Of a DNA stretch of 64,000 nt, positions 4,182-27,382 are shown piece by piece. Source of the DNA: Faunimonas pinastri. Lineage in GTDB: Bacteria > Pseudomonadota > Alphaproteobacteria > Rhizobiales > Afifellaceae. The position numbers were made by a program, and so were the translations under genes. Every line of letters starts with the position of its first letter. Within the stretch, counting starts at the first letter, position 1. Location: the NCBI RefSeq assembly GCF_900110915.1, contig NZ_FOFG01000007.1:62001-126000 (forward strand), in the 5' to 3' direction. The notes under the pieces are model-generated. The model saw nothing but the letters and a program-made list of their open reading frames with translations. It was not told where the DNA came from and ran no database searches.

Positions 4182-4232
4182 ACATCCTCCCGTGGTTCCG
4201 CCCGGGGTCTTCGCCCCGGCTGGGATGGAACC

Positions 4233-4244
4233 GTAAACGTTTAC
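4233..4244. promoter_or_regulatory. LacI-family operator
   Basis: A perfect 12-bp palindrome GTAAACGTTTAC lies in the divergent gap between the oxidoreductase (start 4181) and the lacI-type gene (start 4309 or 4267). It has the central CG dyad typical of LacI/GalR operators (consensus near AAACGTTT) and is placed to control both directions, including autoregulation. Confidence 0.85.
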
Positions 4245-4308
4245 GACGCTATCACGAAGCTTTAGGATGTCAATCGCCCGACCCACGGCGAAGCAGGATT
4301 ACGAAGCC

Positions 4309-7725: not shown

Positions 7726-8865
7726 TCAGCCCTGCAGGAACACCTCTTCGCCGGTCCCTTCCGGAACGGGCTCGGGGCGGGCGCAGGTGCTTTCGATGGC
7801 GATATGCCGCCCCTCCGCCGAGGAGCGCCCGAAGGCTTCCATCACCTCCAGCGCGTGGAGGGCGAGGTCGCCGTTGGCGCGGTGCGGGCGGCCGGCCCGG
7901 ATCGCCGCCGCCATGTCGAAGACACCGATCATCCGGTAATCCGCGACTGACTTGCCGTCGTCCAAGGATCGGTTCGGCGTGCCGAAGGGTTGGGCGGAGA
8001 TATCGACCGGCTGCCACTCGCCGTCGCGGTCGGTGACCTCCGGCGTGCCGCCGAAGAAGTTCGGATCGGGGATGAGGAGGCTGCCTTCCGAACCGTAGAG
8101 CTCGAAGGGAATGCGACGGTTCTTCCACACGTCCCAGGACGCGGTCAGGGAGACGTTTGCGCCGCTGGCGAATTGCAGCACGCCGTTGACGGTGGTCGGC
8201 ACCTCCACCGCGATCTCCTCGCCCCGTCGCCCGGCGCTGCCGATCGTCCGCTTGGGATAGCCCTGTGTCGCCACCGAGGTCACGCGGGTGACCGGCCCGA
8301 GCAGGTTGATCAGCTCTGTCACGTAATAGGGGCCGACATCGAGAATCGGCCCGCCCCCCGGCTTGAAGAAGAAATCCGGGTTCGGGTGCCAGCTCTCCAT
8401 GCCGCGCGAGATGACGGCGGCGGAGCCCGCGAGCACGTGGCCGATGCGCCCGCCGTCGATCAGTCGCCGGCAGGTCTGGTGCGCGCCGCCCATGAAGGTA
8501 TCGGGCGCGCTGCCGACGCGGAGATTGCGGGAGGAAGCCGCCTCGGCCACGGCGCGGGCGTCCTTCAGGAGCGCGGCGAAGGGCTTTTCGGAATAGACGT
8601 GCTTGCCCGCTTCCAGCACCTGCAGGCTGACGCCGGCATGGGCGAGCGGCACGGTGAGATTGATGACGATCTCGATCGCGGGGTCGGCGAGAAGCTGGTC
8701 GATGCCGAGGGCCGCGATGCCGTATCTGGCCGCCTGCGCCTCGGCCGTTTCGGGCCGGAGGTCGGCGCAGGCCTTGAAGCGCACGAGTTTGGAATTGGCG
8801 GCGCCGGTGAGATAGGCGTCGCTGATATTGCCGCAGCCGATCAGGCCGAGTGTCACGGGTTCCAT
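7726..8865 (-). CDS. Gfo/Idh/MocA family oxidoreductase (locus B)
   Basis: A 379-residue NAD(P)-dependent oxidoreductase and the last gene of locus B. It has the Rossmann motif LGLIGCGNISDAYL and the EKP motif SEKPFAALLKDA. The C-terminal domain carries DVGPYYVTELINLLGPV, a signature frequent in sugar-acting members of the family. ATG 8865 is preceded by AGGA at 8 nt; upstream codons in the frame overlap the isomerase gene and lack homology. It is paired with the TIM-barrel isomerase at 8897-9664, repeating the enzyme pair of locus A, but the two oxidoreductases are clearly different in sequence. Confidence 0.92.
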   Translation of the reverse strand: MEPVTLGLIGCGNISDAYLTGAANSKLVRFKACADLRPETAEAQAARYGIAALGIDQLLADPAIEIVINLTVPLAHAGVSLQVLEAGKHVYSEKPFAALLKDARAVAEAASSRNLRVGSAPDTFMGGAHQTCRRLIDGGRIGHVLAGSAAVISRGMESWHPNPDFFFKPGGGPILDVGPYYVTELINLLGPVTRVTSVATQGYPKRTIGSAGRRGEEIAVEVPTTVNGVLQFASGANVSLTASWDVWKNRRIPFELYGSEGSLLIPDPNFFGGTPEVTDRDGEWQPVDISAQPFGTPNRSLDDGKSVADYRMIGVFDMAAAIRAGRPHRANGDLALHALEVMEAFGRSSAEGRHIAIESTCARPEPVPEGTGEEVFLQG

Positions 8866-8896
8866 GGGAGGCGTCCTGGAGTCGGAGAGGGAAAGG

Positions 8897-9664
8897 TCAG
8901 ACGGGCAACCGCGCGAGATAATCGAAGCTCGCCTTGGCGAACGTGTCGGGGTGTTTCGGATTGTCGTGCTCGACGACCATCCATTTCGCGCCGACGGAGC
9001 GCGCCTCTGCCCAGAGCTTCCGCCAGTCCAGCGTACCGGAGCCGACATCCGTCCAGCCGTCCTCGTCCGTCTTTTCGCCGGCGGGCGCGATATCCTTCAC
9101 GTGGACGGAGATGATGCGCGCGCTTTCCCGCGCCAGCCATTCGGAGGGATCGGCCCCGCCGCGCGCCAGCCACGCGACATCCGCCTGCCATGCCAGCGGC
9201 GCTCCGGGGGCCCCTTCGAAGAGGTGGGCGAGGGCGGGCCTCCCGTCCTCCATCGGCGCCAGCTCCCAATGGTGATTGTGATAGCCGAAGCGGATCCCGG
9301 ATCCCTCCATGCGGCGGGCGATCTCGCCGAGTTCCGCTCCGAGCCGCTTCCAGTGCGCGCCGTCGCCCTGCCGGTCCGCTTCCGCGAAGGCGGGCATGAA
9401 GAGTTGCTCCAGGCCGATCGTCCGGGCGGCATCGACCACCCAGTCGAGCCGCTCGCGCAGATCCCCCATGCCGACATGGCCGGATGGGGCCTTGAGCCCG
9501 CGCGCCTGCAATTCCCGCGCGGTGCCGGCGGCATCGGCGAAGTGCGAGCCGATCGTCTCGACATTGCGATAGCCGGCGTCCGCCACGGCATCGAGCTGCC
9601 GGACGAGATCGCCGTGATTGCGGAGGCTGTAGAGCTGGATGGAAATGACGTCGCTTGCCTTCAT
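8897..9664 (-). CDS. Sugar phosphate isomerase/epimerase (TIM barrel, locus B)
   Basis: A 255-residue xylose-isomerase-like TIM barrel. Probable metal and catalytic positions are Glu in NVETIGSHFAD, His in the FGYHNHHWELAP strand, Asp in WQADVAWLA, His in ISVHVKDI and Glu/His in MVVEHDNPKHPD. The ATG at 9664 gives the compact family start (MKASDVISIQLYSLR). The gene sits between the ATPase gene (9694-10788) and the oxidoreductase gene (7726-8865) on the same strand with short gaps, so it is part of the locus B operon. The reaction is unknown; hydroxypyruvate-isomerase, inosose-dehydratase and 3-keto-sugar activities are all found in this superfamily. Confidence 0.88.
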   Translation of the reverse strand: MKASDVISIQLYSLRNHGDLVRQLDAVADAGYRNVETIGSHFADAAGTARELQARGLKAPSGHVGMGDLRERLDWVVDAARTIGLEQLFMPAFAEADRQGDGAHWKRLGAELGEIARRMEGSGIRFGYHNHHWELAPMEDGRPALAHLFEGAPGAPLAWQADVAWLARGGADPSEWLARESARIISVHVKDIAPAGEKTDEDGWTDVGSGTLDWRKLWAEARSVGAKWMVVEHDNPKHPDTFAKASFDYLARLPV

Positions 9665-9693
9665 GACGATGGCCTCTTGAACAATGAGGGGGA

Positions 9694-10788
9694 TCAAAGC
9701 CGGTTTTCCGTCTCGGCGGAAAAGACGGAAGCCTTGGAGATGTCGAAGCGGAGCCGCGCGTCATGCGGCAGTCCGCGCGCGCGATCCGGCGGCAGGCGCA
9801 CGGAGATCGTCCGCCCCGCCCAGTCGAACCAGCAGAGCGTGTCGGCGCCCATCGGCTCGGTGAAGCGGAGTGCCGCCTCCACCACGACGTCCTGCGCCGC
9901 GCCGCCGGTCTCGTCGGCCAGCGAGATGTCCTCCGGGCGCAGGCCCACCACGATGGGTTGGCCGTCGCTGAGCCGCTCGGCGAAGGGGTAGGCCTCGAGC
10001 GGCAGCGATTGCGATCCGACCACCGCCTTGAGGCCGCCGGCGGTGGACAGCGTCGCGGGAACGAGGTTCATCGCGGGCGAGCCGACGAAGCCCGCCACGA
10101 ACAGGGTCGCCGGCCGCTCGTAGAGCGTCTGCGGATCGGCATATTGCTGCACAACGCCGCCGCGCATGACGGCGATCCGGGTCGCCAGCGTCATCGCCTC
10201 GATCTGGTCGTGCGTGACATAGACGATGGTGGAGCCGAGTTTCTGGTGCAGCCGCTTGATCTCGACCCGCATCTCCGTCCGCAGCTTGGCGTCCAGATTG
10301 GAGAGCGGCTCGTCGAAGAGGAAGACCTTCGCCTCGCGCACCAGCGCCCGGCCGATCGCCACGCGCTGGCGCTGGCCGCCGGAAAGCTGGCCGGGCTTGC
10401 GGTCGAGCAGCTCGCGGATCTGCAGGAGGTCGGCAACCCAGGCGACGCGACGCCCGATCTCCGCGCGCGGCACGTGGTTGACCTTGAGCCCGAAGGTCAG
10501 GTTCTGCCGCACGCTCATGGTCGGGTAGAGCGCGTAGGACTGGAACACCATGGCGATGCCGCGCCGGCTCGGCTCCTCGTCCGTGACGTCGGTGCCGCCG
10601 ATGCGGATCTCTCCGTCGGTGGTCTCGTCCAGTCCGGCGATCGTGTTGAGCAGGGTGGACTTGCCGCATCCGGAAGGGCCGAGCAGCACGGTGAACTCGC
10701 CCGGCTCGACCTCCAGGTCGATATCGCGCAGCACATGCAGCGCGCCATAGGATTTGTTGAGGTGGCGAATGGAAATGCCGGCGCTCAT
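9694..10788 (-). CDS. Sugar ABC transporter ATP-binding protein (UgpC/MsmK type)
   Basis: A 364-residue ATPase of the CUT1 carbohydrate importers. Walker A is GPSGCGKST (about residue 37), the Q-loop lies in MVFQSYALYP, the signature motif is LSGGQRQR, Walker B is VFLFDEP, and the H-loop is in YVTHDQIEAM. The C-terminal third (from about residue 240) is the TOBE/MOBE regulatory domain. It lies 4 bp downstream of the permease gene at 10793-11713. It is the only CUT1 ATPase in the window, and locus C has no ATPase of its own, so this subunit may also serve that importer (inference). Confidence 0.95.
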   Translation of the reverse strand: MSAGISIRHLNKSYGALHVLRDIDLEVEPGEFTVLLGPSGCGKSTLLNTIAGLDETTDGEIRIGGTDVTDEEPSRRGIAMVFQSYALYPTMSVRQNLTFGLKVNHVPRAEIGRRVAWVADLLQIRELLDRKPGQLSGGQRQRVAIGRALVREAKVFLFDEPLSNLDAKLRTEMRVEIKRLHQKLGSTIVYVTHDQIEAMTLATRIAVMRGGVVQQYADPQTLYERPATLFVAGFVGSPAMNLVPATLSTAGGLKAVVGSQSLPLEAYPFAERLSDGQPIVVGLRPEDISLADETGGAAQDVVVEAALRFTEPMGADTLCWFDWAGRTISVRLPPDRARGLPHDARLRFDISKASVFSAETENRL

Positions 10789-12666: not shown

Positions 12667-13908
12667 CTACTGGTCGCCGGCGATGATGCCGGAGAAGCTC
12701 TTCGCGGCCTCCTCCGAGGTCATGGAGGGATCGCTCCAGAACTGCGCGACCAGGTCGCCGAGCTGGCCTTCCGCGTCGGCGCTCATCGCGAGGGCCGCGT
12801 TGGGCAATTGGTTGTCCTGGACGGACACGACCTTCTTGCCGAGCTGGCTGCACATGTCGAGCGAGCCGACATCGGCGTCGAGGCGCGGGGGAATGGCGCC
12901 CTTTTCCTTGTTGAAGGCGACCTGGACCTCAGGGTCCATCATCACGTTGGCGAGGAGTTGCTGGCCCTTCTGCTTGTCGGGATCGTTCGTCTTGGGGAAG
13001 ACGAAGACGTCCACCGTCATGATGTAGGCGTCCTGGTTGCCCGGCGAGAGCTGGCAACCGAACTCCTTGCCCGGGGTCAGGCCCGCCGCCTTGAACTCGC
13101 CCTTCACCCAGTCGCCCATGATCTGGAACGCCGCCTTGTCGCTGGCGACCAGCATGGCCGTGTCGTTCCACTTGCGCCCGGCCATGCCCTCGTCCGTGAG
13201 CGGCTTCAGGCGCCGCAGCATGTCGAAGGACTTCACCATCTCCGGCCCGGCGGCCGCATCGGCATCGTGGTCGATCATCACCTTCTTGTAGAAGGGCTTC
13301 CCGCCCACGCCGACCATGACGGAGCGAAACAGCAGCGCCTGCTGCCAGGGTTCGCCGCCGACCGCCAGCGGAATATAGCCCTTGGCCTTGATCTTGTCGG
13401 CGGAGGCGATCATCTCGTCGAAGGTCTTCGGGGGCTCCACGCCCGCGTCGGCCAGCACCTTGGTGGAATACCAGAGCCAGTTGTCGGCATGGATATCGAC
13501 GGGAACGGCGACGAAATGGCCCTCATAGCTGGCGTTCCTGGCGATCAGCGGCGGGATCTTGTCCGCCCAGCCGCCGGCCTTCGCCTCCGCATCGAGATCG
13601 GTGAGGATGCCCTGCTCGGCCAGCTTGCGCACCGCGACGCCGATGTTCCACATCAGCGCGGCGGGAGGCTGGCCGCCGGCGATCCGGCTCATGGCCAGCG
13701 CCTGCGCGGGCTGGCCGCCGACCACCGCGTTGTCGATCCACTTGCCGCCGCGCTTTTCGAACTCGGTGGCGAAGACCTTGACGGCCTTCGATTCCGAGCC
13801 GCTCGTCCACCAGTGAATGACATCGGCAGTCTGGGCCGAGGCATGCGAGGACGGGGCAGATGCCAGCGCAAAAACCGCCGACAGGTAAAGCGCCCTGGAA
13901 AACTTCAT
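12667..13908 (-). CDS. Carbohydrate ABC transporter substrate-binding protein (locus B)
   Basis: A 413-residue periplasmic binding protein and the first gene of locus B. The signal peptide is MKFSRALYLSAVFALASAPS with cleavage around HASAQ. The mature protein begins ADVIHWWTSGSESKAVKVF, the family-1 opening found in glucose/mannose-type binding proteins. The start at 13908 follows GGGAGGAAG at good spacing. It is divergent from the LacI-type gene, with candidate operators at 13961-13999, and probably repressed by it. The sugar is unknown, although WW-TSG-type binding proteins are often monosaccharide or glucoside receptors. Confidence 0.93.
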   Translation of the reverse strand: MKFSRALYLSAVFALASAPSSHASAQTADVIHWWTSGSESKAVKVFATEFEKRGGKWIDNAVVGGQPAQALAMSRIAGGQPPAALMWNIGVAVRKLAEQGILTDLDAEAKAGGWADKIPPLIARNASYEGHFVAVPVDIHADNWLWYSTKVLADAGVEPPKTFDEMIASADKIKAKGYIPLAVGGEPWQQALLFRSVMVGVGGKPFYKKVMIDHDADAAAGPEMVKSFDMLRRLKPLTDEGMAGRKWNDTAMLVASDKAAFQIMGDWVKGEFKAAGLTPGKEFGCQLSPGNQDAYIMTVDVFVFPKTNDPDKQKGQQLLANVMMDPEVQVAFNKEKGAIPPRLDADVGSLDMCSQLGKKVVSVQDNQLPNAALAMSADAEGQLGDLVAQFWSDPSMTSEEAAKSFSGIIAGDQ

Positions 13909-14069: not shown

Positions 14070-15089
14070 TTGACGGACCGGTTCGTGGGCTCACGGCCCA
14101 AGATGACAGATGTGGCAAGGCTCGCGGGGGTCTCGGTGGCGACCGTCAGCCGCTCGCTCGCCGGCTCGCCGCTGGTGACGGGGGAAACGCGCGAGCGCAT
14201 CGAGGCGGCGGTGCGCGAGACCGGCTATGTCGTGAACCACATGGCGCAGCGGCTGCGGCTGCAGGAATCCCGGCAGATCCTGGCGCTCGTCCCCGACATC
14301 GCCAATCCCTTCTTCGCCGAGGTTCTGGTCGGCGTGGAGGGGGCGGCGCACGAGGCGGGATTCAACGTCCTGATCGGCAACACCGCCGACGACCCGCGCC
14401 GCGCCGATCTTCATGCCCGCCAGCTCCTCACCGGCGGTGTCGACGGGATGCTGCTGATGAACGGCCGCCTGCCCGACGTGCTCTTGGGCAAGGCGCATGA
14501 CGGGCGGCTTGTCGCGGTGGTGGAGCCGGTTCCGGGCAAGAAGCTGCCGACGGTGGAGATCGACCAGCGCGCCGCCGCGGGTGCCGCGACAGAGTATCTG
14601 GCCGGGCTCGGACACCGCCGGATCGCACATATCACGGGCGTCGTCGCATCGACCGTCTCAGACCTGCGGCTCCGGGGCTACCGCGATGCGCTGGCGCGCC
14701 TCGGGCTTGCCGTGGACGAGCACATGATCGCGGCCGGAGACTACACGATAGCCGGCGGCGAACACGCGATGGCGAGGCTGCTTGCGAGCGGAGAGCGTCC
14801 GACTGCGGTGTTCTGCTCCAGCGACGAAACCGCGATCGGCGCGATCAAGGCGATCAGGGCGGGGGGGCTGAGCACGCCGGGGGACATCTCGGTCATGGGC
14901 TTCGACGATATCCAGATCGCCGCGGCCTACGATCCACCGCTGACGACGATCCGCCAGCCCAAGCGACTGATGGGGGCCGAGGGCTTCCGTTTGCTGGCCG
15001 ACAGGATCGCGGGAACGGCGTCATCCGTCCGCAGCGAGCCCCTGCCTTTCGAACTCGTCATCCGCGCCAGCTGCGCCCCGCCGAAATAG
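14070..15089 (+). CDS. LacI family transcriptional regulator (locus B)
   Basis: A 339-residue repressor if the TTG at 14070 is used. The HTH lies at residues 12-31 (MTDVARLAGVSVATVSRSL), followed by the hinge MAQRLRLQESRQILALV and a sugar-binding domain with FCSSDETAIGAIKA near the C-terminus. GTG at 14085 or ATG at 14103 are possible starts; none has a clear ribosome binding site. The longer forms keep the basic RPK stretch ahead of the HTH that many relatives carry. It is divergent from locus B, so it is most likely that operon's inducer-sensing repressor. Confidence 0.88.
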   Translation: MTDRFVGSRPKMTDVARLAGVSVATVSRSLAGSPLVTGETRERIEAAVRETGYVVNHMAQRLRLQESRQILALVPDIANPFFAEVLVGVEGAAHEAGFNVLIGNTADDPRRADLHARQLLTGGVDGMLLMNGRLPDVLLGKAHDGRLVAVVEPVPGKKLPTVEIDQRAAAGAATEYLAGLGHRRIAHITGVVASTVSDLRLRGYRDALARLGLAVDEHMIAAGDYTIAGGEHAMARLLASGERPTAVFCSSDETAIGAIKAIRAGGLSTPGDISVMGFDDIQIAAAYDPPLTTIRQPKRLMGAEGFRLLADRIAGTASSVRSEPLPFELVIRASCAPPK

Positions 15090-15733: not shown

Positions 15734-17059
15734 TTATTCCGCGGCTTCGCGCAGCGGCTCGTGCAGGGCGCCGGGCAGCCAGCTGCCATGCTCTTCGATG
15801 AGGTCGTCCACCAGCGACCAGATCTGGTCGACGCTGAGTTCGGCCGCCGTATGCGGGTCGAGCATCGCGGCATGATAGACATGCTCGCGCTTGCCGGTGA
15901 GAGCCGCTTCCACGGTCAGGCGCTGCACGTTGATGCTGGTCTGCATCAGCGCGGCGAGGTGGATCGGGATCTCGCCGATCTGCACCGGCTGGACGCCGTT
16001 CTTGTCGACGAGGCAAGGCACTTCCACGCAGCAATCGGCGGGCAGGTTGCTGATGGAGCCCTTGTTGATGACGTTGGCATAGACCACGCGGCTGACGCCC
16101 GTCTCCGAGCTGTGGATGATCTCGGAGGCGTATTCGCTGCTGCGCTTGGCCTCGATCACCGTGTTCGGGTCTTCCATCTCCGCCTGGGTCTTCTCCCAGT
16201 CCGCGATATGGACTTCGCAGCGCCGGATGTATTCATCGAGCGGAATGTTGAATTCCTCGATCAGGTCCGGACGCTCGCGGTGGATGTACCACGGCACGTA
16301 CTCGCTGAAATGCTCGCTGGATTCCGTCACGAAATAGCCGAAGCGCTTCAGCAGGTCGTAGCGGACGCGGTTGTCGGCGGGCACGCGGCCTTCGGCGAGA
16401 ACCTTGCGGATCTCGGGATAGAGGTCGCGGCCGTCCTTCTCGAACTTCAGGTAGAAGGCGATGTGGTTGATGCCGGCGGCGACATAGTTGATATCGCCGG
16501 CCGGGACGCCGATGTCCTTCGCCAGCTGGGCGGCCGTGCCGCGAACGCTGTGGCAAAGGCCGACCGTGCGCACGCTGCTGCCACGGTTCAGCGCCCAGAC
16601 GTTCATCGCCATCGGGTTCACGTAATTGAGGTGCAGCACGTCGGGGCAGAGCCGCTCCATGTCGTGCACCATCTCCAGCTGCACCGGGATCGTGCGAAGC
16701 GCGCGCATGATGCCGCCGATGCCCAGCGTGTCGGCGATCGTCTGGCGCAGGCCGTATTTCTTCGGGATCTCGAAATCGGTGACCGTGCAGGGCTTGTAGC
16801 CGCCGACCTGGATCATGTTGATCGCATAATCCGCGCCGTCCAGCGCGCGATCGCGGTCGGTGGTCGCGATGATCTTCGGCGAGATCTTGAGAAAGGCCGC
16901 GATCTTGCGCGCCACGATCTCGGAGGTGGAAAGACGCTCCGCGTCGATGTCGTAGAGCCAGATTTCGCTATGGGCGAGTTCGGGATAGCTCAGGATGTCG
17001 CCGAGCAGGTTCTGCGCGAAAACCGTGCTGCCGGCGCCGATGAATGTGATCTTGGCCAT
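15734..17059 (-). CDS. Glycoside hydrolase family 4 (alpha-galactosidase/alpha-glucosidase type)
   Basis: A 441-residue NAD- and metal-dependent glycosidase, near MelA in length (about 450). The N-terminal dinucleotide site is ITFIGAGSTVFAQNLLGDIL. Substrate and metal motifs are NYVNPMAMNVWA, GLCHSVRG (Cys and His) and AGINHIAFYLKF (His). GH4 enzymes cleave by transient oxidation at C3, so NAD is a cofactor, not a co-substrate. The protein has no signal peptide and is cytoplasmic, so it would cleave an intact imported glycoside. The start at 17059 follows TTGGAGG. It is the last gene of locus C after the SIS protein. Alpha specificity is inferred from MelA/AglA-like motifs. Confidence 0.92.
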   Translation of the reverse strand: MAKITFIGAGSTVFAQNLLGDILSYPELAHSEIWLYDIDAERLSTSEIVARKIAAFLKISPKIIATTDRDRALDGADYAINMIQVGGYKPCTVTDFEIPKKYGLRQTIADTLGIGGIMRALRTIPVQLEMVHDMERLCPDVLHLNYVNPMAMNVWALNRGSSVRTVGLCHSVRGTAAQLAKDIGVPAGDINYVAAGINHIAFYLKFEKDGRDLYPEIRKVLAEGRVPADNRVRYDLLKRFGYFVTESSEHFSEYVPWYIHRERPDLIEEFNIPLDEYIRRCEVHIADWEKTQAEMEDPNTVIEAKRSSEYASEIIHSSETGVSRVVYANVINKGSISNLPADCCVEVPCLVDKNGVQPVQIGEIPIHLAALMQTSINVQRLTVEAALTGKREHVYHAAMLDPHTAAELSVDQIWSLVDDLIEEHGSWLPGALHEPLREAAE

Positions 17060-17122
17060 GAATGCCTCCAATCGATGTTGCGGGGTGGGCTGCCGGCCGA
17101 GGGGTCGGCGCCGCTGGGTGGA

Positions 17123-18076
17123 TCAGGCGACCAGCACGACCTTGGTGAGGTGGCGCGGGGCGGTGGAATCGATCTTGCGGCTGACGGCCAGCCGTTCGCC
17201 GAGGATCTGGAGGGCAGGCAGGCAGATGAGGCCGCGCAGGATCTCTTCCGCATCGAGCGAGATGGACAGGTCGCCGGGGCCGCCAAGGCCGATCACGGCG
17301 GCGCCCTTGGCCCGAAGTTCGGCCACGAGCTTGGTTTCCTCGGGCAGCATTTCCGGGCTGTAGAGCATGACGACCAGCGTCCGCGCCTCCACGAGGCTGA
17401 TCGGGCCGTGCCGATATTCCATCGGATGGTAGGCCTGGGTGTAGCTGAGGCTCATCTCCTGCAGCTTCAGCGAGCCTTCCTGGGCGACACCGTAGAGCGG
17501 GCCGCTGCCGAGATAGACGAAGTGCGAGCGGCCAGAGAGCAGCGGCACGATTGCGGCATCGAGCTCCCGCATCACCCGGTCGGCCTCGCGCGTGACGTCC
17601 GGGCCGACGGGGACGCCGATGAAGCGCAGCGCCATCAGCACCATCAGCGAGGCCGAGGACGTCATCACGATGCCCTCCTGCGGATGCGTCTCGGCAAAGA
17701 TGACGTGATCGGAATGGCGGGTCAGGCTGCTGTCGCGGTCGCAGGTGATGCCGATCACCTCGATGCCGACGCTGCGGCTGCGTTCGGCCGCCTGCACCGT
17801 CTCGGTGCTCTCGCCGCTGCGCGACAAAGCGACGACGGTGACGGCCTTCTCATCGCGGACATAGGCCTGCGCGCGGTGCGTCCACTCGCTGCCGGGTACG
17901 GCCAGGGCCTGGATGCCGCGCAGGTTCATCGTGGCGGCGATGCACTGGGCCAGATAATAGGACGTGCCGCAGCCGACCACGACGTAGGACTTCGAGGCAT
18001 CGGCCCGGATCGCGGGCTCGGGCGCTCCGTCCCAGAACGGGAACTGCTCCACGATGCTGCGCTCTGTGGCGTTCAT
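17123..18076 (-). CDS. SIS-domain protein, GlmS-like isomerase/deaminase
   Basis: A 317-residue protein made of two sugar-isomerase (SIS) domains, equivalent to the C-terminal half of GlmS without its glutaminase. Domain 1 has VVVGCGTSYYLAQ and ALSRSGESTETVQ. Domain 2 has FVYLGSGPLYGVAQEGSLKL and the conserved acidic/His region YRHGPISLVE. Relatives such as AgaS and FrlB deaminate or isomerise phosphorylated amino sugars. It lies between permease and GH4 genes in locus C. With the kinase at 21235-22233 it suggests an amino sugar released by the GH4 enzyme, phosphorylated, then deaminated (inference). Confidence 0.88.
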   Translation of the reverse strand: MNATERSIVEQFPFWDGAPEPAIRADASKSYVVVGCGTSYYLAQCIAATMNLRGIQALAVPGSEWTHRAQAYVRDEKAVTVVALSRSGESTETVQAAERSRSVGIEVIGITCDRDSSLTRHSDHVIFAETHPQEGIVMTSSASLMVLMALRFIGVPVGPDVTREADRVMRELDAAIVPLLSGRSHFVYLGSGPLYGVAQEGSLKLQEMSLSYTQAYHPMEYRHGPISLVEARTLVVMLYSPEMLPEETKLVAELRAKGAAVIGLGGPGDLSISLDAEEILRGLICLPALQILGERLAVSRKIDSTAPRHLTKVVLVA

Positions 18077-18096
18077 TTGAAATACCTTCTCCTGGG

Positions 18097-18990
18097 TTAC
18101 TTGCCGGCGCCGGCAGTCAGTCCCTGCACGAGGAACCGGTTGAGGAAGACGACCACGACGAAAGGCGGCAGGATCGCGAGGATGCCGGCAGCGTTGATCA
18201 GGCCGAAATTGAGGTCGTGCCGCGATGCGAGTTCCGGGATCATCACGGTCAGCGGCTTGGTGGCGTAGGTCGGCGAGAAGACCAGCGGGACGCTGAACTG
18301 CTGCCAGACGCTGAGGAAGGTGACGATGGCCGTCGCGATCAGGCCGGGCATGGCGAGCGGCAGCACGATGCGGAACAGCGTGTAGAGCCGGCTCGCCCCG
18401 TCGATCTGCGCCGCCTCTTCCAGCGACTTCGGCAGGCTCAGGAAGAAGCTTCGCATCAGCCAGAGCGCCAGCGGCAGGAAGGCGGACATGTAGATCAGCG
18501 TCAGGCCGAGATAGGTGTCGACGAGCCCGAGCTTGATCATCAGCCGGTAGAGCGGAATGATCACGGTGTAGCCGGGGACCGCGAGGGTCGCCACGACAAG
18601 GCCGAAGACGATGTTGCGGCCGGGAAAGCGGAGCCGGGCGAAGGCATAGCCGCCCAGCGCCGCGACGACGATGGTGCCGAGCGTGCCGGCCACCGCCGTG
18701 ACGAGGCTGTTGATCGTGGCGGCCCGGAAGTGCGGCCAGATCGACGCCCCCGTCGCGTTGTCGGCCGCCCCCTGCAGGCCGAGCAGCCCCGAATAGGTCT
18801 TCAGCGTCGGCGCCGGCGGAAAGGCGTGCGGCGGCACGGCCGTCAGGTCCACCGGCTGCATCAGGCTGGAATTCAGCGCCCAGTAGATCGGCCCGAGCGA
18901 CCAGAGGAGCACCAGCGCGATCAGCACGCCCTTGCCGATCTTGGCCGGAGTGAGCGCCTCCGACAGGCGCAGGGAAAGGGCCTCACTCAC
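18097..18990 (-). CDS. Sugar ABC transporter permease (MalG-type, locus C)
   Basis: A 297-residue inner-membrane permease with six predicted membrane segments, the first at about residues 19-40 (GVLIALVLLWSLGPIYWAL). The EAA loop is LEEAAQIDGASRLYTLFRIV. ATG 18990 overlaps the end of the partner permease gene by 8 bp. It forms the channel of the locus C importer with the MalF-type subunit. No ATPase gene is present in this operon. Confidence 0.93.
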   Translation of the reverse strand: MSEALSLRLSEALTPAKIGKGVLIALVLLWSLGPIYWALNSSLMQPVDLTAVPPHAFPPAPTLKTYSGLLGLQGAADNATGASIWPHFRAATINSLVTAVAGTLGTIVVAALGGYAFARLRFPGRNIVFGLVVATLAVPGYTVIIPLYRLMIKLGLVDTYLGLTLIYMSAFLPLALWLMRSFFLSLPKSLEEAAQIDGASRLYTLFRIVLPLAMPGLIATAIVTFLSVWQQFSVPLVFSPTYATKPLTVMIPELASRHDLNFGLINAAGILAILPPFVVVVFLNRFLVQGLTAGAGK

Positions 18991-19918
18991 TGTGCGTCTC
19001 CCCGCGGCCGCGCAGGACGAACACCGAGGAGACCGCCAGCGATGCGAGCATCACCAGGATCGACAGCGCCATCCCGTAGGACATGTGAAGGTTCTGGAAG
19101 GCGGTCATGTAGACCTCGATCAGCAGGCTGCGTGTATCGAGGCTGGCACCGCCGAGGATCCAGGCCTCGTCGAAGAGGTTGAAGGCCGTCACCGTCGACT
19201 GCGTCATGGCGATGGCCAGCGGCCCGGCGGTGAGCGGCAGGGTGACGGAAATGAAGGTCCGCCATGACGAGGCCCCGTCGATCTTGGCCGCCTCATAAAG
19301 CTGGGCGGGGATGCCCTGCAGCGCCGCCAGCATGATGACGGCGGTCAGCGGCAGCATCTTCCAGACATGCACCAGCGCGATCAGCACGAGCGCGGCCGTC
19401 CGGTTGTTGGACCAGACGAAATCCCCCGAGATCAGGTGCAGTCCGCGCAGGATCGCGTTGATCACGCCGTAGGTCGGATTGAACATCCAGCTCCACATCA
19501 GCGAGTTCACGACCGACGGGATCGCCCACGGGAGAATAATAGCGGCCAGGAGCCATTTCCGGGCCCGGCCCATGCTTTGCAGCAGGAGGGCGAAAGCGAC
19601 GCCCCCCAGCGTTTCCAGCACCACGGCGAGGAGCACCAGCCACAGCGTGTTGGCGGTCGCCGCGCGAACCTCGGGATCGTTGAAGAGGCGCGTGTAGTTC
19701 GTCATCCCGATAAAGGGAGTGCCCGGCCGCATCGGATCGATGCGGAACAGGCTCTGCCCGGCCGTCATGACGAGCGGGAAGAAGACGAGCGCACCCATGA
19801 CGACGATGACGGGCAGCACGAGGGAACCGCCGAGCAGCGCTTCCCGGGCGTCGCTTCCGGTCAACCGCAGCCGTCGTGTCACCCGAACGCGATAAGAGTC
19901 GGTCATCGACAGGGTCAT
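18983..19918 (-). CDS. Sugar ABC transporter permease (MalF-type, locus C)
   Basis: A 311-residue inner-membrane permease. ATG 19918 opens MTLSMTDSYRVRVTRRLRLT, a basic cytoplasmic tail, and the first membrane segment lies at about residues 31-55. The EAA loop is LYEAAKIDGASSWRTFISVT, and NLFDEAWILGGASLDTRSLL follows near the C-terminus. An ATG five codons further in is also possible. The open frame upstream is the shadow of the binding-protein gene. It is co-transcribed with the binding protein (stop 19942, 23 bp away) without an intervening hairpin, unlike loci A, B and D. Confidence 0.93.
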   Translation of the reverse strand: MTLSMTDSYRVRVTRRLRLTGSDAREALLGGSLVLPVIVVMGALVFFPLVMTAGQSLFRIDPMRPGTPFIGMTNYTRLFNDPEVRAATANTLWLVLLAVVLETLGGVAFALLLQSMGRARKWLLAAIILPWAIPSVVNSLMWSWMFNPTYGVINAILRGLHLISGDFVWSNNRTAALVLIALVHVWKMLPLTAVIMLAALQGIPAQLYEAAKIDGASSWRTFISVTLPLTAGPLAIAMTQSTVTAFNLFDEAWILGGASLDTRSLLIEVYMTAFQNLHMSYGMALSILVMLASLAVSSVFVLRGRGETHSE

Positions 19919-19941
19919 GGGTACGCTCTCCCTTGCCCCGC

Positions 19942-21207
19942 CTACTGCTGCTGCGCCGACTGGGCGCGATCGGCGATCTGCTTCACCGCCGCGTCGACGG
20001 TGATCTGACCCTTGGCGACCTGGTTGATCGTCGCGGAGACAGCGCCGCTGAACTCGGAATACCAGGCAGGCGTGCCCTGCGAGAAGATCGCCTGGGTATA
20101 GGCGCTGTACTTGGCGATCTCCGCGCCGCCCTGCAGCTTGCCGTCCTTGGCGAGCCCTTCCAGCGCGGACGTTCGCGTCGGCAGCACGGACACGGCCGTA
20201 TAGATCTCCGGCTGGTGCTCGCTCCACCACTTGATGAACTTCACCGCGGCGTCCTTGTGCTTGGAATTCACGGGAATGCCCATCGCTTCCGGCAGCGCGA
20301 TCGTCATCGGCTTGGCCGGATCGGCCGCTGCCAGGCTGTAGGTCACCTGACCCACCACCTTGGATTTCTGCGGATCGTTGTAGGTCGCGAGGTCGTAGGG
20401 ATGCCCGGCCAGGTCGATCGCCGCATTGCCGCCCGCGAAGGAGGCGGTGACCTGCATGTCGGTGAGGCCGGTCATCGCCGGGTTGATCAGGCCGTCATGC
20501 AGCCCCTGGGCGATCCATTCCAGCGCCTTGTAGCCGGCCGAATCCTTGGCGGTGAAAAGCGGCTTCCAGTCCTTGTCGAAGAGTTCGCCGCCGTACATGC
20601 GGGTGAGGAAATACCACGCGGTCGAGGTGCCCTCCGCCGCCGCCAGCGGGATCGACACGGGGTAGTCAACCACCTTCTTGTCCTTCAGGATCTTGGCGTC
20701 CTTCAGGATGTCGTCGGGCGTCTTCGGCGCCTCGGTGATGCCGGCCTTCTTCAGCAAGGCCATGTTGACGGAGTTGACCCGGAAGTCGTTGGCATAGGGC
20801 ACGCCGTAGAGCTTGCCCTCATAGGTGAAGACGGAAGCCGTCGGCATGTCCTTGATCAGGGCCGCGTCGAACTTGTCGTCCAGCGGCGTGAACCACTTGG
20901 CCGCGCCGAACTGGCCGATCCAGGACCAGTCGAACTCGATCGCATCGGCCGGGGCGGTGCCCGCGACCATCGAGGTCACGATCTTCGGCCGGATGTCGTC
21001 CCAGGACATGGTCTGGAGATTGACTTCGATGCCGGATTCCTTGGTGAAGCCTTCCAGCAATTGCCGCGTCGTGGCATCGGCCCCGAAGGACGGCAGCAGC
21101 ACGGTGATCTCTTCCGCCTGCGCGGCTGCCGCGCAGAACAGCGTCGTCGTCAGCGCCGTGGTGGCCAATGCCGCCGCGAGCTTCCTTGAAATTCCTCTTC
21201 CCAACAT
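19942..21207 (-). CDS. Sugar ABC transporter substrate-binding protein (locus C)
   Basis: A 421-residue periplasmic binding protein of carbohydrate family 1. The signal peptide runs MLGRGISRKLAAALATTALT with cleavage after AAAAQA. The mature part begins EEITVLLPSFGADATTRQLL, with the family's AIEFDWSWIGQFG region at about residues 85-97. ATG 21207 is followed by a plausible Sec signal. It lies between the kinase gene (21235-22233) and the MalF-type permease. The ligand is unknown; the operon's enzymes suggest an amino-sugar-containing glycoside. Confidence 0.93.
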   Translation of the reverse strand: MLGRGISRKLAAALATTALTTTLFCAAAAQAEEITVLLPSFGADATTRQLLEGFTKESGIEVNLQTMSWDDIRPKIVTSMVAGTAPADAIEFDWSWIGQFGAAKWFTPLDDKFDAALIKDMPTASVFTYEGKLYGVPYANDFRVNSVNMALLKKAGITEAPKTPDDILKDAKILKDKKVVDYPVSIPLAAAEGTSTAWYFLTRMYGGELFDKDWKPLFTAKDSAGYKALEWIAQGLHDGLINPAMTGLTDMQVTASFAGGNAAIDLAGHPYDLATYNDPQKSKVVGQVTYSLAAADPAKPMTIALPEAMGIPVNSKHKDAAVKFIKWWSEHQPEIYTAVSVLPTRTSALEGLAKDGKLQGGAEIAKYSAYTQAIFSQGTPAWYSEFSGAVSATINQVAKGQITVDAAVKQIADRAQSAQQQ

Positions 21208-21234
21208 GTCCGCTCTCCCCTTTTTGTGAACGGC

Positions 21235-22233
21235 CTAAACTTCTGGAAACCCGGCCAGCGATTTCCCCAATCGCGAAAGCCAGGTCTCATTCACGGTCCA
21301 GCCGGCGTCGCGGGCGGCGCGCCAGAGCGCCCCCCCGATCGGCGGCAGGGCCGGATCTGTCGGTCGGGTCCCGATCTTCGCGGTGACGCGATCCAGCAGG
21401 ATACGGCTGCGGAAGGCGCCCCCGGCGAAGCTCCAGCGGATCTCGCTTTCGTCCGCTCCGGGCTCGACGATCGCCTTCCATGCGGCAAGGACATGCGCGG
21501 CAAGATGCTCGGCGGCGTCGTCGAGGATCCGTAGCGCCTGCGCGTCGCCGGTTTCCGCCGCCCCGTCGACGAACTGCGCCAGACGCGCGAGGTCGGAGCG
21601 CGGATGCGTGCGCGAGCCGTACCAGTCGATCAGCGCTTCCTGCCGGTCGTCGCGGGAAAGGCCGAGATGCGTGAACAGCGCCTCCGCCAGCCCGCTCGGC
21701 GGCAGTCGGCCGTCGATCATGCGACTGACGCGGGCAATCGTTTCCCGGCCGATCCAGTAGGCGCTGCCTTCGTCGCCGAAAGCATCGCCCCAGCCGCCGA
21801 CCCGGACGTTCTCGCCCGCCGCCGATGCGGCCCAGGCCATGGAACCCGTGCCGGCCAGAAGCAGCACGCCGGGCTGGCCGACGAAGGCGCCCTCATACGC
21901 CGCATGGACGTCGTTCAGCACCCGCAGCGGAAACGCTCCGAACTCCTGGGCGGCGGCCTCCTGCGCGGCGGACACGGCGGAAACCTCGCCATATCCGGGG
22001 AGCCCGAACACGGCGGCTTCGGTGGACGGCAGGAAATCGACCGCGCGCGCCTTCAGGCGCTGCAACACGCCGCGCCAGTCGGGCGCGTCGAAAGGATTGC
22101 TGCCCGCCTCGCGGAAGCAGGCGGCAGCCGTGCCATCCGGCCGGGCGACGGCCAGCAGCGTCTTGGAGCCGCCGCCATCCAGGCCGATCACCACCGGTCC
22201 GGCGCTCGCATCGGGTGCAGCCGCAGCGATCAC
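21235..22233 (-). CDS. BadF/BadG/NAGK-type sugar kinase
   Basis: A 332-residue ASKHA-fold kinase of the BadF/BcrA/N-acetylglucosamine-kinase group. The phosphate-1 loop is VVIGLDGGGSKTLLAV, the phosphate-2 region is LLLAGTGSMAWAAS, and GWGDAFGDEGSAYWIGR is a strong family signature; FAGGAFRS is near the adenosine site. The start is a GTG at 22233 that overlaps the DeoR gene stop as GTGA, so the two are coupled. Family members in ABC-sugar operons phosphorylate GlcNAc, GlcN or glucosyl disaccharides. In locus C it would phosphorylate the cytoplasmic amino sugar. Confidence 0.9.
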   Translation of the reverse strand: MIAAAAPDASAGPVVIGLDGGGSKTLLAVARPDGTAAACFREAGSNPFDAPDWRGVLQRLKARAVDFLPSTEAAVFGLPGYGEVSAVSAAQEAAAQEFGAFPLRVLNDVHAAYEGAFVGQPGVLLLAGTGSMAWAASAAGENVRVGGWGDAFGDEGSAYWIGRETIARVSRMIDGRLPPSGLAEALFTHLGLSRDDRQEALIDWYGSRTHPRSDLARLAQFVDGAAETGDAQALRILDDAAEHLAAHVLAAWKAIVEPGADESEIRWSFAGGAFRSRILLDRVTAKIGTRPTDPALPPIGGALWRAARDAGWTVNETWLSRLGKSLAGFPEV

Positions 22234-23009
22234 GCCTCCACCTCTCCCGCTGCCAGCACGAGATCGGCGCCGAGATCGGCGACACGGCTGCGCCAGTCGG
22301 TCGACAGCCCCTCGTCGGTGATGATCTTCATGCCCGGCGCGAATGTCGCGACCCGATACGGGGCATGCAGGTCGAACTTGGAGGAATCCGCCAGGAGGAC
22401 AGGCTGCCTCGTGCGGTCGAGCATGCGGCGGTTCAGGCTCGCCTCGATCACGTCGAGCGTATGGAAGCTGCCATCCTCGTGGACCGCGCTGAAGCCCATG
22501 AAGAGTTGGTCGAACCAGAGGTCGTCGAGCGTGCGCTCCGCCTGCGGCCCGACAAAGGAAAGGTTCTCGTTGCGAAGCTGGCCGCCGATGACGCTGACGC
22601 GGAGGTCGGGAACGTTGGCGAGTTCATAGGCCACGGCCAGACCGTTGGTGAAGACCGAAAGCGGCATGGGCTGCAGCCGAAGGAGCCGCGCCACCTGCAG
22701 CACCGTCGTGCCCGCATCGAGGAAGATCGTGCTTTGCGGCCGGATCATCTCCGTCGCGCTGCGGGCAATCGCCCGCTTGGCCGCGATGTTGCGCTTTTCG
22801 CGAACCCGGAAGCCGAGCTCCACACCGGCGGTTTCTGCCAGCCTGACACCGCCATGCGTCCGCTCGACGGCCCCTTCGTCTTCCAGGCGCTGCAGGTCGC
22901 GCCTGACGGTCGCCAGCGAGGCGCCCGTGGCACCGCAAAGCTCCTGCACGCTGGCCGAGCCGCGCGCATAGAGATGGTGCCGAATGATCTCAAGCCGGTC
23001 GTCCGTCAT
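22230..23009 (-). CDS. DeoR/GlpR family transcriptional regulator (locus C)
   Basis: A 259-residue repressor and the first gene of locus C. The N-terminal DeoR winged helix covers about residues 5-57 (SVQELCGATGASLATVRRDL then EGAVERTHGG). The sugar-phosphate-sensing DeoR C-domain has STIFLDAGTTVLQVA and VIGGQLRNENLSFVGPQ. It overlaps the kinase gene and is therefore autoregulated with the whole operon. DeoR proteins usually respond to a phosphorylated sugar, which here would be the kinase product. Repeated TGATC elements upstream (23030-23102) are candidate binding sites. Confidence 0.92.
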   Translation of the reverse strand: MTDDRLEIIRHHLYARGSASVQELCGATGASLATVRRDLQRLEDEGAVERTHGGVRLAETAGVELGFRVREKRNIAAKRAIARSATEMIRPQSTIFLDAGTTVLQVARLLRLQPMPLSVFTNGLAVAYELANVPDLRVSVIGGQLRNENLSFVGPQAERTLDDLWFDQLFMGFSAVHEDGSFHTLDVIEASLNRRMLDRTRQPVLLADSSKFDLHAPYRVATFAPGMKIITDEGLSTDWRSRVADLGADLVLAAGEVEA

Positions 23010-25676: not shown

Positions 25677-27095
25677 CTAGAGCATCGCCATATAGGTCGG
25701 CAGCTCGTTCATGTTCGGGACGACCACCAGGCGGTTGATCAGGCCTGCCCGGAAAGCCGCCAGGAAGCGGTTGTAGTCCTTGAAGACCACGCAGCCGTTG
25801 GACTGCGACCGGTCGCCGCCGCCGATATACATGTAGGGATGGGCGAGCAGGCCGTCGCGGTTGTACTTCTTGCGGCCGTCGGCGGGCAGCAGCCGGATGG
25901 CGGCCGCGCCATGGAACAGGCGCTCGCGGGCCACGAGGTTGTAGACGTTGGGCGGCGTCGGGCCACGGTTCTTCTCGTGGACGAAGCGCGCGTCGTCCTG
26001 CATGCGGGAAAGGCCGGAATGGGCCTCCAGCCGCTGGCCGTTCGGCAGGCGAACGCTGGCCGAAGCGATATCGTAGACGGCCACGCCGCTCGAGGGTCCC
26101 GGCAGGTTCGCCATGCCGCCGCCGCGACCGAAAAGCCGCCCGAAGATGTTTTCCGACTTGCCGCCATCGACGTCTTCGTCCGGTGACGCATAGGCGAGCG
26201 TCGTCGAATTCTGCTGCCGCGGCACCGCCATGCGGGTCCCCGGTTCCGGTCGCGTGGCCGGGGTTTCCTGCGTGTAGGACGCCTTGATGATCGGCGCCGC
26301 TCGTGCGGGCTCGGCCTCGGCGCGCGCCACCAGCGTCGGCCGCTGGACGGGTGCCGGAACGGGAGATTGAACGGGAGACTGGGCCACGATGCTCGGGCGC
26401 GGCGAGGGGAGAACCATCGGGATCTCGGCCTCGACGGAGGCCGGGGCTTCGGTATCCGCGCCGAGTTCGGCCGTAACGATCGGTCGGGCCGTCGGGATCC
26501 GCAAGGCCGACGCGGAAGCGACCTCGAGGGAGCGGGCGCTGACGTCGGGGGCCGGCTGGGGCAGGGACGCCAGCGTCACCGGAGCGGCCGCGGGAGAGGC
26601 CGCAAGCTGGGTCGGAAGCTGGCCCGGAAGCTGGCCCGGAAGCTGGAAAGCCTCTTTCCACTCCGGCGTGGTGCTGCGGAAGCGGCTGGCCAGTTCCGTC
26701 GCGGCGATGCGGACCGGGGCGGCGAGATACCCGCCATACCGATCTGAATTCCTGGCGAGTTGCATCGGGGTCGGCTGCCACGCGAAGCGGCCGTTCCGGA
26801 GCAGCGTTCCGCGATCGGCCGAACGCTCCTGATGGACGACCAGCCGGTCGCCGCGCGGAGCCAGAGGGTAGCGGTGGGAGTTTGCATCGCCCTCCGTGCC
26901 GGGGGCCTGGACAGACGGAAGCCCAGCGCCCGCAGATGCGGCGGCGTGCAGGGAAAAGAGGTGCGTGCGCGTTGCCGGCAGCGCGACGACGGCGAGAGCG
27001 GCGGCAATGCTGGTTCCGACGAGGGCCGTGGACATCTTGCGGAACCCGCGCGAGGAACGTCCACCCGACGAGGAATCATCAAAGTTTCTGATCAT
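25677..27095 (-). CDS. DUF2778/Tlde1-like L,D-transpeptidase-fold protein, membrane-anchored
   Basis: A 472-residue protein. Residues about 22-46 form an N-terminal membrane anchor (MSTALVGTSIAAALAVVALP). A long low-complexity Pro/Ala/Gln-rich linker follows (about 100-300), including LPGQLPGQLPTQL repeats. The C-terminal globular domain begins near residue 325 (VAVYDIASASVRLPNGQR). It has YMYIGGGDRSQSNGCVVF, whose Ser-x-Gly-Cys with an upstream His (LLAHPYMY) matches the Tlde1/L,D-transpeptidase-like catalytic pattern. The likely site is periplasmic, acting on peptidoglycan. ATG 27095 is preferred over the GTG at 27098. It is monocistronic. Confidence 0.8.
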   Translation of the reverse strand: MIRNFDDSSSGGRSSRGFRKMSTALVGTSIAAALAVVALPATRTHLFSLHAAASAGAGLPSVQAPGTEGDANSHRYPLAPRGDRLVVHQERSADRGTLLRNGRFAWQPTPMQLARNSDRYGGYLAAPVRIAATELASRFRSTTPEWKEAFQLPGQLPGQLPTQLAASPAAAPVTLASLPQPAPDVSARSLEVASASALRIPTARPIVTAELGADTEAPASVEAEIPMVLPSPRPSIVAQSPVQSPVPAPVQRPTLVARAEAEPARAAPIIKASYTQETPATRPEPGTRMAVPRQQNSTTLAYASPDEDVDGGKSENIFGRLFGRGGGMANLPGPSSGVAVYDIASASVRLPNGQRLEAHSGLSRMQDDARFVHEKNRGPTPPNVYNLVARERLFHGAAAIRLLPADGRKKYNRDGLLAHPYMYIGGGDRSQSNGCVVFKDYNRFLAAFRAGLINRLVVVPNMNELPTYMAML

Positions 27096-27382
27096 CACGC
27101 GCCTTGCCTCGCTGGGTGGGGCCGTTCCGGGTTGCCGAGCACCCGACCGGTTGCTCGTTATCGCGAACTATGGCTACCGAATCCTTAACACAGACGCGTC
27201 TTCCCGTTTAGGGAGAGGGTTCATTTGTGATCGCGGAGCCTACTAGCGCGGGATTGTGCACCAAAAGAGGACAAAGATACCGTCCCGGTGCGACAAGAAG
27301 GCTCAACATCCGTCGCTGAGCAGAAGCCCGCAGGCGGGAAATCGCCCTCCCGGGGAACACGACGAAGCGGCCTCCTGCCTGC

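Follow-up and report, generated by a model that had tools for sequence, protein, structure and literature searches.

A probable galactosamine operon carrying a family 4 glycoside hydrolase in Faunimonas pinastri

In a stretch of 64,000 nucleotides of the genome of the alphaproteobacterium Faunimonas pinastri (contig NZ_FOFG01000007.1, positions 62,001 to 126,000; hereafter the window, within which all coordinates are counted), an operon on the minus strand (15734-23009) encodes a DeoR-type regulator, a BadF-type sugar kinase, parts of a sugar importer, a protein with two SIS domains and a glycoside hydrolase of family 4 (GH4). We propose that this is probably an operon for the acquisition and catabolism of galactosamine whose GH4 enzyme serves the same substrates, a proposal that covers both an amine-specific GH4 and a plain galactosidase acting on a mixed polymer. 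The compounds handled are most likely alpha-linked galactosamine oligosaccharides, such as fragments of galactosaminogalactan or Pel. The amino sugar is narrowed to galactosamine because close homologues of the SIS protein strictly co-occur with GatZ/KbaZ, and because related gene sets cluster with glycoside hydrolases of family 114 (GH114) in two other phyla. The genes and a neighboring ATPase gene, with ABC denoting ATP-binding cassette, are as follows.

22230..23009, minus strand: DeoR-family regulator (PF00455/PF08220 over cut-off; nearest to GlpR/AgaR-type models; AgaR model NF040755 168 bits, missing the cut-off of 260)
21235..22233, minus strand: BadF/BadG-type (NAGK-like) sugar kinase, proposed galactosamine 6-kinase (PF01869, BcrAD_BadFG, 88.6 bits, cut-off 31.5)
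19942..21207, minus strand: extracellular sugar-binding protein of the SBP_bac_1 family, CUT1 type (PF01547, 134 bits)
18983..19918, minus strand: ABC permease 1 (PF00528; start inferred from translation, ATG at 19918)
18097..18990, minus strand: ABC permease 2 (PF00528)
17123..18076, minus strand: double-SIS protein, proposed galactosamine-6-phosphate deaminase/isomerase yielding tagatose-6-phosphate and ammonia (PF01380 in two stretches, 102 bits)
15734..17059, minus strand: GH4 NAD-dependent glycosidase of the MelA subfamily, proposed alpha-galactosaminidase, or alpha-galactosidase on galactosamine-containing oligosaccharides (PF02056/PF11975)
9694..10788, minus strand: UgpC/MalK-type ATPase of a neighboring sugar operon, possibly shared (PRK11650, 435 bits, cut-off 432)

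The initial annotation had placed the regulator, kinase, importer, SIS protein and GH4 in one operon, and this stands, all of them lying on the same strand with Pfam scores far above cut-off. The gaps measure -4 nucleotides between regulator and kinase, 27 between kinase and binding protein, about 23 between binding protein and permease 1 (given the inferred ATG), -8 between the permeases, 20 between permease and SIS gene, and 63 between the SIS and GH4 genes, for which the ATG at 17059 is better placed than the TTG at 17071. With gaps of -8 to 63 nucleotides, transcription as a single unit is therefore likely. No sigma-70-like promoter was found between 15500 and 23400, and terminator-like matches in this interval were as many as in shuffled sequence. 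The operon itself encodes no ABC ATPase; the UgpC-type ATPase at 9694-10788 is 50% identical to the UgpC encoded within a similar operon of Rhizobium (see below). The gene set is not a chance assembly, since a kinase gene is found near the SIS gene at 20 of the 22 SIS loci of the order (the window and 21 fetched stretches, some shortened by contig ends), and since the row of regulator, kinase, binding protein, two permeases and SIS protein recurs in most of these stretches.

As to the identity of the amino sugar, one line of evidence comes from gene distribution. Counting as close SIS homologues, at the levels of order and class, only matches with E of at most 1e-40, these are present in 21 of 397 genomes of the order, spread over eight families, while a class-wide draw of 385 genomes revealed one in F. 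pinastri and in a single further genome. Within the family (11 genomes), only F. pinastri possesses one, the SIS proteins of the other genomes matching at E 1e-14 or weaker. A search of the 397 genomes of the order for GatZ/KbaZ (PF08013) showed it in all 21 SIS-positive genomes versus 44 of the 376 SIS-negative ones (Fisher 1.4e-18) or, by genus, in 8 of 8 versus 16 of 133 (2.3e-7), p values that are inflated by kinship, related genomes not being independent, though the SIS-positive genomes represent eight families. GatZ/KbaZ is also encoded inside the stretch around the single further class-level SIS match. The F. pinastri genome encodes one such protein, on contig C36 (TIGR02810, 639 bits, cut-off 569), and thus possesses a tagatose-6-phosphate-consuming enzyme; its gene adjoins those for a tagatose kinase (NF049991, 474 bits, cut-off 420) and a ribose-type importer. 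A passage of PMC11907403 describes GatZ/KbaZ as a C4 epimerase interconverting tagatose-6-phosphate and fructose-6-phosphate. Its presence favors galactosamine because this interconversion is required for the use of galactosamine but not of glucosamine.

The other line of evidence is presented by clusters in Deinococcus and Actinobacteria. Clusters of Deinococcus psychrotolerans and Deinococcus sp. AB2017081 combine genes for an SIS protein, a BadF kinase, a class II aldolase, a PfkB kinase, a distant GH4 and a Gfo/Idh/MocA protein with one or more genes whose annotation is endo-alpha-1,4-polygalactosaminidase, and in D. psychrotolerans the GH114 domain was checked and confirmed. The Deinococcus GH4 is 36% identical to that of the window and falls just short of the MelA alpha-galactosidase model PRK15076 (469 bits, cut-off 486). 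The Gfo/Idh/MocA oxidoreductase gene directly follows the GH4 gene in both clusters (L137, 16940-18244; L166, 17550-18821), and we presume that it could encode a GH109-like alpha-N-acetylgalactosaminidase. One stretch of the streptomycete Streptantibioticus cattleyicolor encodes a GH114 protein (269 bits), an aldolase, an SIS protein, a binding protein, permeases, a PfkB kinase, a GH4 (PRK15076, 586 bits) and a DeoR regulator nearest to AgaR (211 bits, cut-off 260). It is among 11 actinobacterial records with a related SIS protein; eight loci were examined, all with an aldolase, six with a PfkB-type kinase, three with a ROK kinase and two with NagA. GH114 is described, in part of a recent paper, as an endo-galactosaminidase family attacking polymers of the galactosaminogalactan type (PMC12054363). 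By these comparisons, the initially annotated scheme, in which an amino sugar is phosphorylated and then deaminated and isomerized, is a well-supported prediction and can be specified further, with galactosamine as the amino sugar.

The association with GH4 is recurrent. A GH4 gene lies at five of the 22 SIS loci of the order (the window, L141, L143, L144 and L156), in three of the eight SIS-bearing families (f1, f24 and f50), and GatZ/KbaZ is encoded at 11 of the 22. Plasmids are another source: 86 plasmid records match the SIS protein at 1e-20, 66 of them from Rhizobium, and of ten loci sampled from these, seven possess GH4 and seven GatZ/KbaZ, the two Deinococcus loci encoding the class II aldolase and PfkB kinase instead of GatZ/KbaZ, and one locus (L167) encoding neither. 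In Rhizobium leguminosarum and relatives, plasmids (NZ_CP088096, NC_008378 and others) carry an operon in the order GH4, DeoR, BadF, binding protein, two permeases, SIS, GatZ and UgpC, which shares the core gene set and order with the operon of the window (identities of 56% for SIS, 49% for the binding protein in strain SU303, 58% for DeoR, 42% for the kinase and 61% for GH4), but differs in that GH4 is found upstream, beside an AraC gene, and in that GatZ and UgpC are encoded inside the operon.

The substrates and reactions that follow are predicted for F. pinastri from the observed gene content, layout, family membership and co-occurrence. A CUT1 importer, probably completed by a UgpC-type ATPase from elsewhere, would take up short alpha-linked galactosamine-containing oligosaccharides, derived from galactosaminogalactan or Pel-like polymers cut outside the cell by enzymes of other organisms. 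Inside the cytoplasm, GH4 would use NAD and a metal to split the alpha linkage, releasing galactosamine, galactose or both; the BadF kinase would convert galactosamine to galactosamine-6-phosphate, and the SIS protein would deaminate and isomerize the latter to tagatose-6-phosphate, to be converted to fructose-6-phosphate by the GatZ/KbaZ encoded beside the tagatose kinase. The DeoR protein would repress the operon until a phosphorylated intermediate accumulates. Residues 32-316 of the SIS protein align to the isomerase domain of GlmS, with retention of the E..HGP stretch and of the C-terminal lysine, which we take to be catalytic in GlmS. The protein scores under every NCBIfam cut-off, the best being GlmD (NF041128, 134 bits versus 580), with 61 bits for NagB-II (NF046059, cut-off 430) and 84 bits for AgaS (TIGR02815, cut-off 529), and its best PDB label is glucosamine-6-phosphate deaminase 1j5x. 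The nearest solved structures for the kinase are a MurNAc/GlcNAc kinase (8zo3), a hexokinase (2e2n) and a probable GlcNAc kinase (1zc6), and its score for NagK_SO3507 (NF046058) is 78 bits, below the cut-off of 370. Solved relatives of the sugar-binding protein include maltose-, sorbitol- and other sugar-binding proteins.

The last gene of the operon encodes a GH4 protein by both of its domains (PF02056, 204 bits, cut-off 23.2; PF11975, 225 bits, cut-off 24.1) and by its predicted fold (mean pLDDT, the predicted local distance difference test score, of 92.6), which best matches LplD (3fef) with Z 45.6 over 408 residues at 1.8 A; the top 17 structural matches are all GH4 entries, after which Z falls to 25. 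Residues C169, H170, N198, H199 and Y254 (ATG numbering) are invariant across 13 aligned GH4 proteins, the conserved cysteine, histidine and tyrosine of the active site being presumably the metal ligands and the base. The protein shows no sign of a signal peptide. It scores 678 bits with PRK15076, over the cut-off of 486, and is 53-55% identical to MelA-type genes of Klebsiella and Enterococcus and to a GH4 of Sinorhizobium meliloti. The F. pinastri genome also encodes two further GH4 proteins, their genes flanking an oligopeptide-type ABC transporter, with AraC and major facilitator superfamily genes nearby (L114; contig C41, 85001-104500), so that the GH4 of the window is a third copy; it is 65% identical to the GH4 beside that transporter. 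A similar GH4-ABC-GH4 row is present on pSymB of S. meliloti (L171), where we assume it to be used for raffinose-type sugars. Among the other four genomes of the order with an SIS-linked GH4, G395 likewise possesses a GH4 pair, a single additional GH4 is listed for G128 and for G202, and G156 has no other.

Sharing with MelA-type alpha-galactosidases the PRK15076 score and the GH4 fold, the enzyme differs from them in its operon context and in Q20, D239, Y262 and S379 (numbered from the TTG), where the usual residues are K/R, E, F and N. When nine rhizobial and f50 SIS-linked GH4 sequences were compared with 85 unlinked ones (L003, S. meliloti AgaL1 and L006_b being set aside), 50 columns separated the two groups. 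Three of the six departures of the window GH4 from strongly conserved residues (E239D, F262Y and N379S) match the rhizobial group. Position 20 is lysine or arginine in 81 of the 85 unlinked relatives and glutamine in three, and position 379 is asparagine in 84, while the four SIS-linked lineages (the window, rhizobia with f50, Streptantibioticus and Deinococcus) all have glutamine at 20 and have serine, serine, tyrosine and histidine, respectively, at 379. The signature residues were chosen on the window, rhizobial and Deinococcus proteins; the Streptantibioticus GH4, found later, fits with Q20, D239, Y262 and tyrosine 379, and the Deinococcus GH4 with Q20 and histidine 379 only. Among 3570 pairs of unlinked GH4s, 13 share at least three such rare residues with the rhizobial group, and four of these also match Deinococcus at one, many of the pairs so found consisting of near relatives. 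Loss of the positive residue at position 20 would fit a substrate with a cationic amine at C2 in place of the hydroxyl, and the signature as a whole is a lead, suggestive only. Three independent origins of the SIS linkage, as in a first tree, were not upheld, the approximately unbiased (AU) test not rejecting a single clade of the window and rhizobial GH4s (p 0.108). A separate origin for the Streptantibioticus GH4 was likewise dropped, as a clade of the window, rhizobial and Streptantibioticus proteins was not rejected (p 0.389). Only for the Deinococcus GH4, at 36% identity, do we assume a separate recruitment, on grounds of distance rather than of a test. Tentatively, and short of an even chance, we suggest that the GH4s tied to the SIS operon may be cytoplasmic NAD- and metal-dependent exo-alpha-galactosaminidases, recruited at least twice, with loss of K/R20 and N379, changes that would suit a cationic amine at C2. 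We know of no GH4 enzyme with alpha-galactosaminidase as its substrate class.

A number of observations weigh against the proposed galactosamine operon with a dedicated GH4. GH4 is missing beside 17 of the 22 SIS loci of the order and from seven of the eight actinobacterial loci, adjoining the SIS gene in Streptantibioticus only; one of the seven (L202) has a 31% GH4-like match 10.7 kb away, among other genes. The GH4s of Embleya and S. mirabilis are 77-78% identical to that of Streptantibioticus, and their records are outside both the 14 with a relative of its SIS protein and the 17 with a relative of its GH114. Four further GH114 regions from those 17 records have pelF in all cases and no SIS-GH4 cluster annotated. 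Loci L193-L196, from Kocuria, Deinococcus and Streptomyces plasmids, are pel-like biosynthesis clusters in which endo-alpha-1,4-polygalactosaminidase genes are next to pelF-type glycosyltransferase genes, two of them also encoding a spherulation-specific family 4 protein. GH114 (PF03537) has no matches in the F. pinastri genome, and this species would therefore live on fragments made by others. None of the 80 closest relatives of the window GH4 retained from genome contigs has the SIS protein or kinase of the window nearby at 1e-10 (several of the contigs spanning only 3-10 kb), and its NCBIfam class is alpha-galactosidase. It shares six of the 50 separating residues, and ten other sequences, two of them from Deinococcus, share as many or more; D239 and Y262 are also found in its two unlinked sisters (L015, L035), and the D, Y and S residues occur in distant AgaL1-type GH4s too. 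Residues rare in all four lineages occupy two columns, at least two being seen in 24 of 300 random pairs, and those rare in three lineages occupy six, at least six being seen in 36 of 300, neither of which is significant. In both NCBIfam and the PDB the SIS protein is labeled most closely as a glucosamine-6-phosphate enzyme, though always below cut-off, the kinase models are NagK-like and uninformative as to the galacto configuration, and no deacetylase is encoded within the operon.

The GH4 enzyme may instead be a plain alpha-galactosidase that trims galactose from mixed galactose/galactosamine oligosaccharides or from Gal-alpha-GalN, with galactosamine arriving free or otherwise released. 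For the pathway this is a sub-case of our proposal, and it is a rival only with regard to GH4, where we consider it a real if somewhat doubtful possibility. The PRK15076 score, the identities to MelA-type genes and the still closer match to the GH4 beside the oligopeptide-type transporter are all consistent with it, as is the galactose that galactosaminogalactan also contains, according to a section of PMC12054363. However, with two other GH4 genes already present in another operon of the genome a third copy suggests another job, the SIS-linked GH4s share Q20 and lose N379, and the distant Deinococcus GH4 is tied to the same gene set. The earlier claim that the amino sugar is freed by GH4 from an alpha-glycoside taken up by the cell is plausible and agrees with the recurrent linkage, and is countered by the sequence class of the enzyme itself. 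That GH4 is an incidental neighbor, an alpha-galactosidase gene at the end of a galactosamine operon, co-transcribed without a shared pathway, appears unlikely: while most SIS loci lack GH4, the rhizobial GH4 is placed upstream beside an AraC gene and the window GH4 has its two closest sisters in unrelated surroundings, the association is seen repeatedly, in three families of the order, in a streptomycete and, with a distant GH4, in Deinococcus, and two GH4 groups at about 36% identity favor at least two recruitments.

Less likely still is an operon for glucosamine, comprising a glucosamine kinase, an SIS-type glucosamine-6-phosphate deaminase (NagB-II/GlmD-like) and a GH4 for alpha-glucosaminides. 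The best labels of the SIS protein (GlmD and 1j5x) and the NagK-type models nearest to the kinase point in this direction, but the GlmD, NagB-II and NagK cut-offs are missed by far, the strict co-occurrence with GatZ/KbaZ and the clustering with GH114 and class II aldolases point to the galacto series, a tagatose-phosphate enzyme is unneeded for the glucosamine route, and GH4 belongs to a galactosidase subfamily.

Some parts of this picture have precedents. The aga/gam pathway of Escherichia coli for GalNAc and galactosamine has a DeoR-family regulator, AgaR, and uptake by the phosphotransferase system, hence no ABC importer or kinase, and its operon is not known to include a glycosidase. It resembles the operon of the window in employing an SIS-domain protein for galactosamine-6-phosphate, AgaS, proposed as deaminase/isomerase in PMC3668189, unlike which the SIS protein of the window scores far below the AgaS cut-off. 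In S. meliloti, a D-galactosamine operon (Smb21216-21221 with Smb21373/21374) was predicted from deletion phenotypes and a transporter induction study, as outlined in part of PMC4961836, similarly combining an ABC importer, an SIS protein and further enzymes for galactosamine. Its likely counterpart in strain ml46, presumably Smb21216-21221 by gene content, differs by a ROK regulator, PfkB in place of BadF, an SIS match of 28%, its own UgpC and the absence of GH4. Two other papers, as far as their passages go, have no bearing on GH4, one on a predicted galactosamine-binding protein in R. leguminosarum (PMC6421345) and one on erythritol (PMC5758756). No link between GH4 and galactosamine was found in the literature at the level of titles, abstracts and passages, with thin coverage of subscription journals, nor was any characterization of the R. 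leguminosarum-type operon found in the literature searched. The set noted initially, for which no characterized pathway was known, is not unique, given the Rhizobium operon and the pathway of the same logic predicted in S. meliloti. A galactosamine pathway and operon is already known as a prediction in print; the apparent novelty lies in the BadF/SIS variant and in its partners: within the order it strictly co-occurs with GatZ/KbaZ, it is repeatedly linked to GH4, and in other phyla it is linked to GH114.

Further sugar-related genes are found in the window between 874 and 15089, in a layout that recalls glycoside-oxidation loci: along with the UgpC-type ATPase, these encode SBP_bac_1 binding proteins (874-2193 and 12667-13908), Gfo/Idh/MocA oxidoreductases (3147-4286 and 7726-9048), a xylose-isomerase-like TIM-barrel protein (8897-9697) and LacI regulators (4267-5361 and 14070-15089). 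On the other side of the operon, a protein encoded at 25677-27098 has a C-terminal Tlde1 domain (PF10908, 86 bits), which we take to be the fold of L,D-transpeptidase-like effectors.

Cationic galactosamine polymers, fungal galactosaminogalactan and bacterial Pel, shape biofilms, and the known galactosaminidases acting on them are placed, in the part of PMC12054363 consulted, in GH114, GH135 and GH166. If the SIS-linked GH4s are indeed exo-alpha-galactosaminidases, they would carry out the final, intracellular reaction of a pathway by which galactosaminogalactan and Pel-type biofilm polymers are consumed. A candidate exo-enzyme of this kind inside the cell, together with the importer and catabolic route belonging to it, would make a pathway for using these polymers as food complete and would provide a tool for analyzing them. 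A loosely annotated gene set on many Rhizobium plasmids would thereby become a concrete, testable galactosamine pathway, and it is in the specificity of GH4 that a real discovery may lie.

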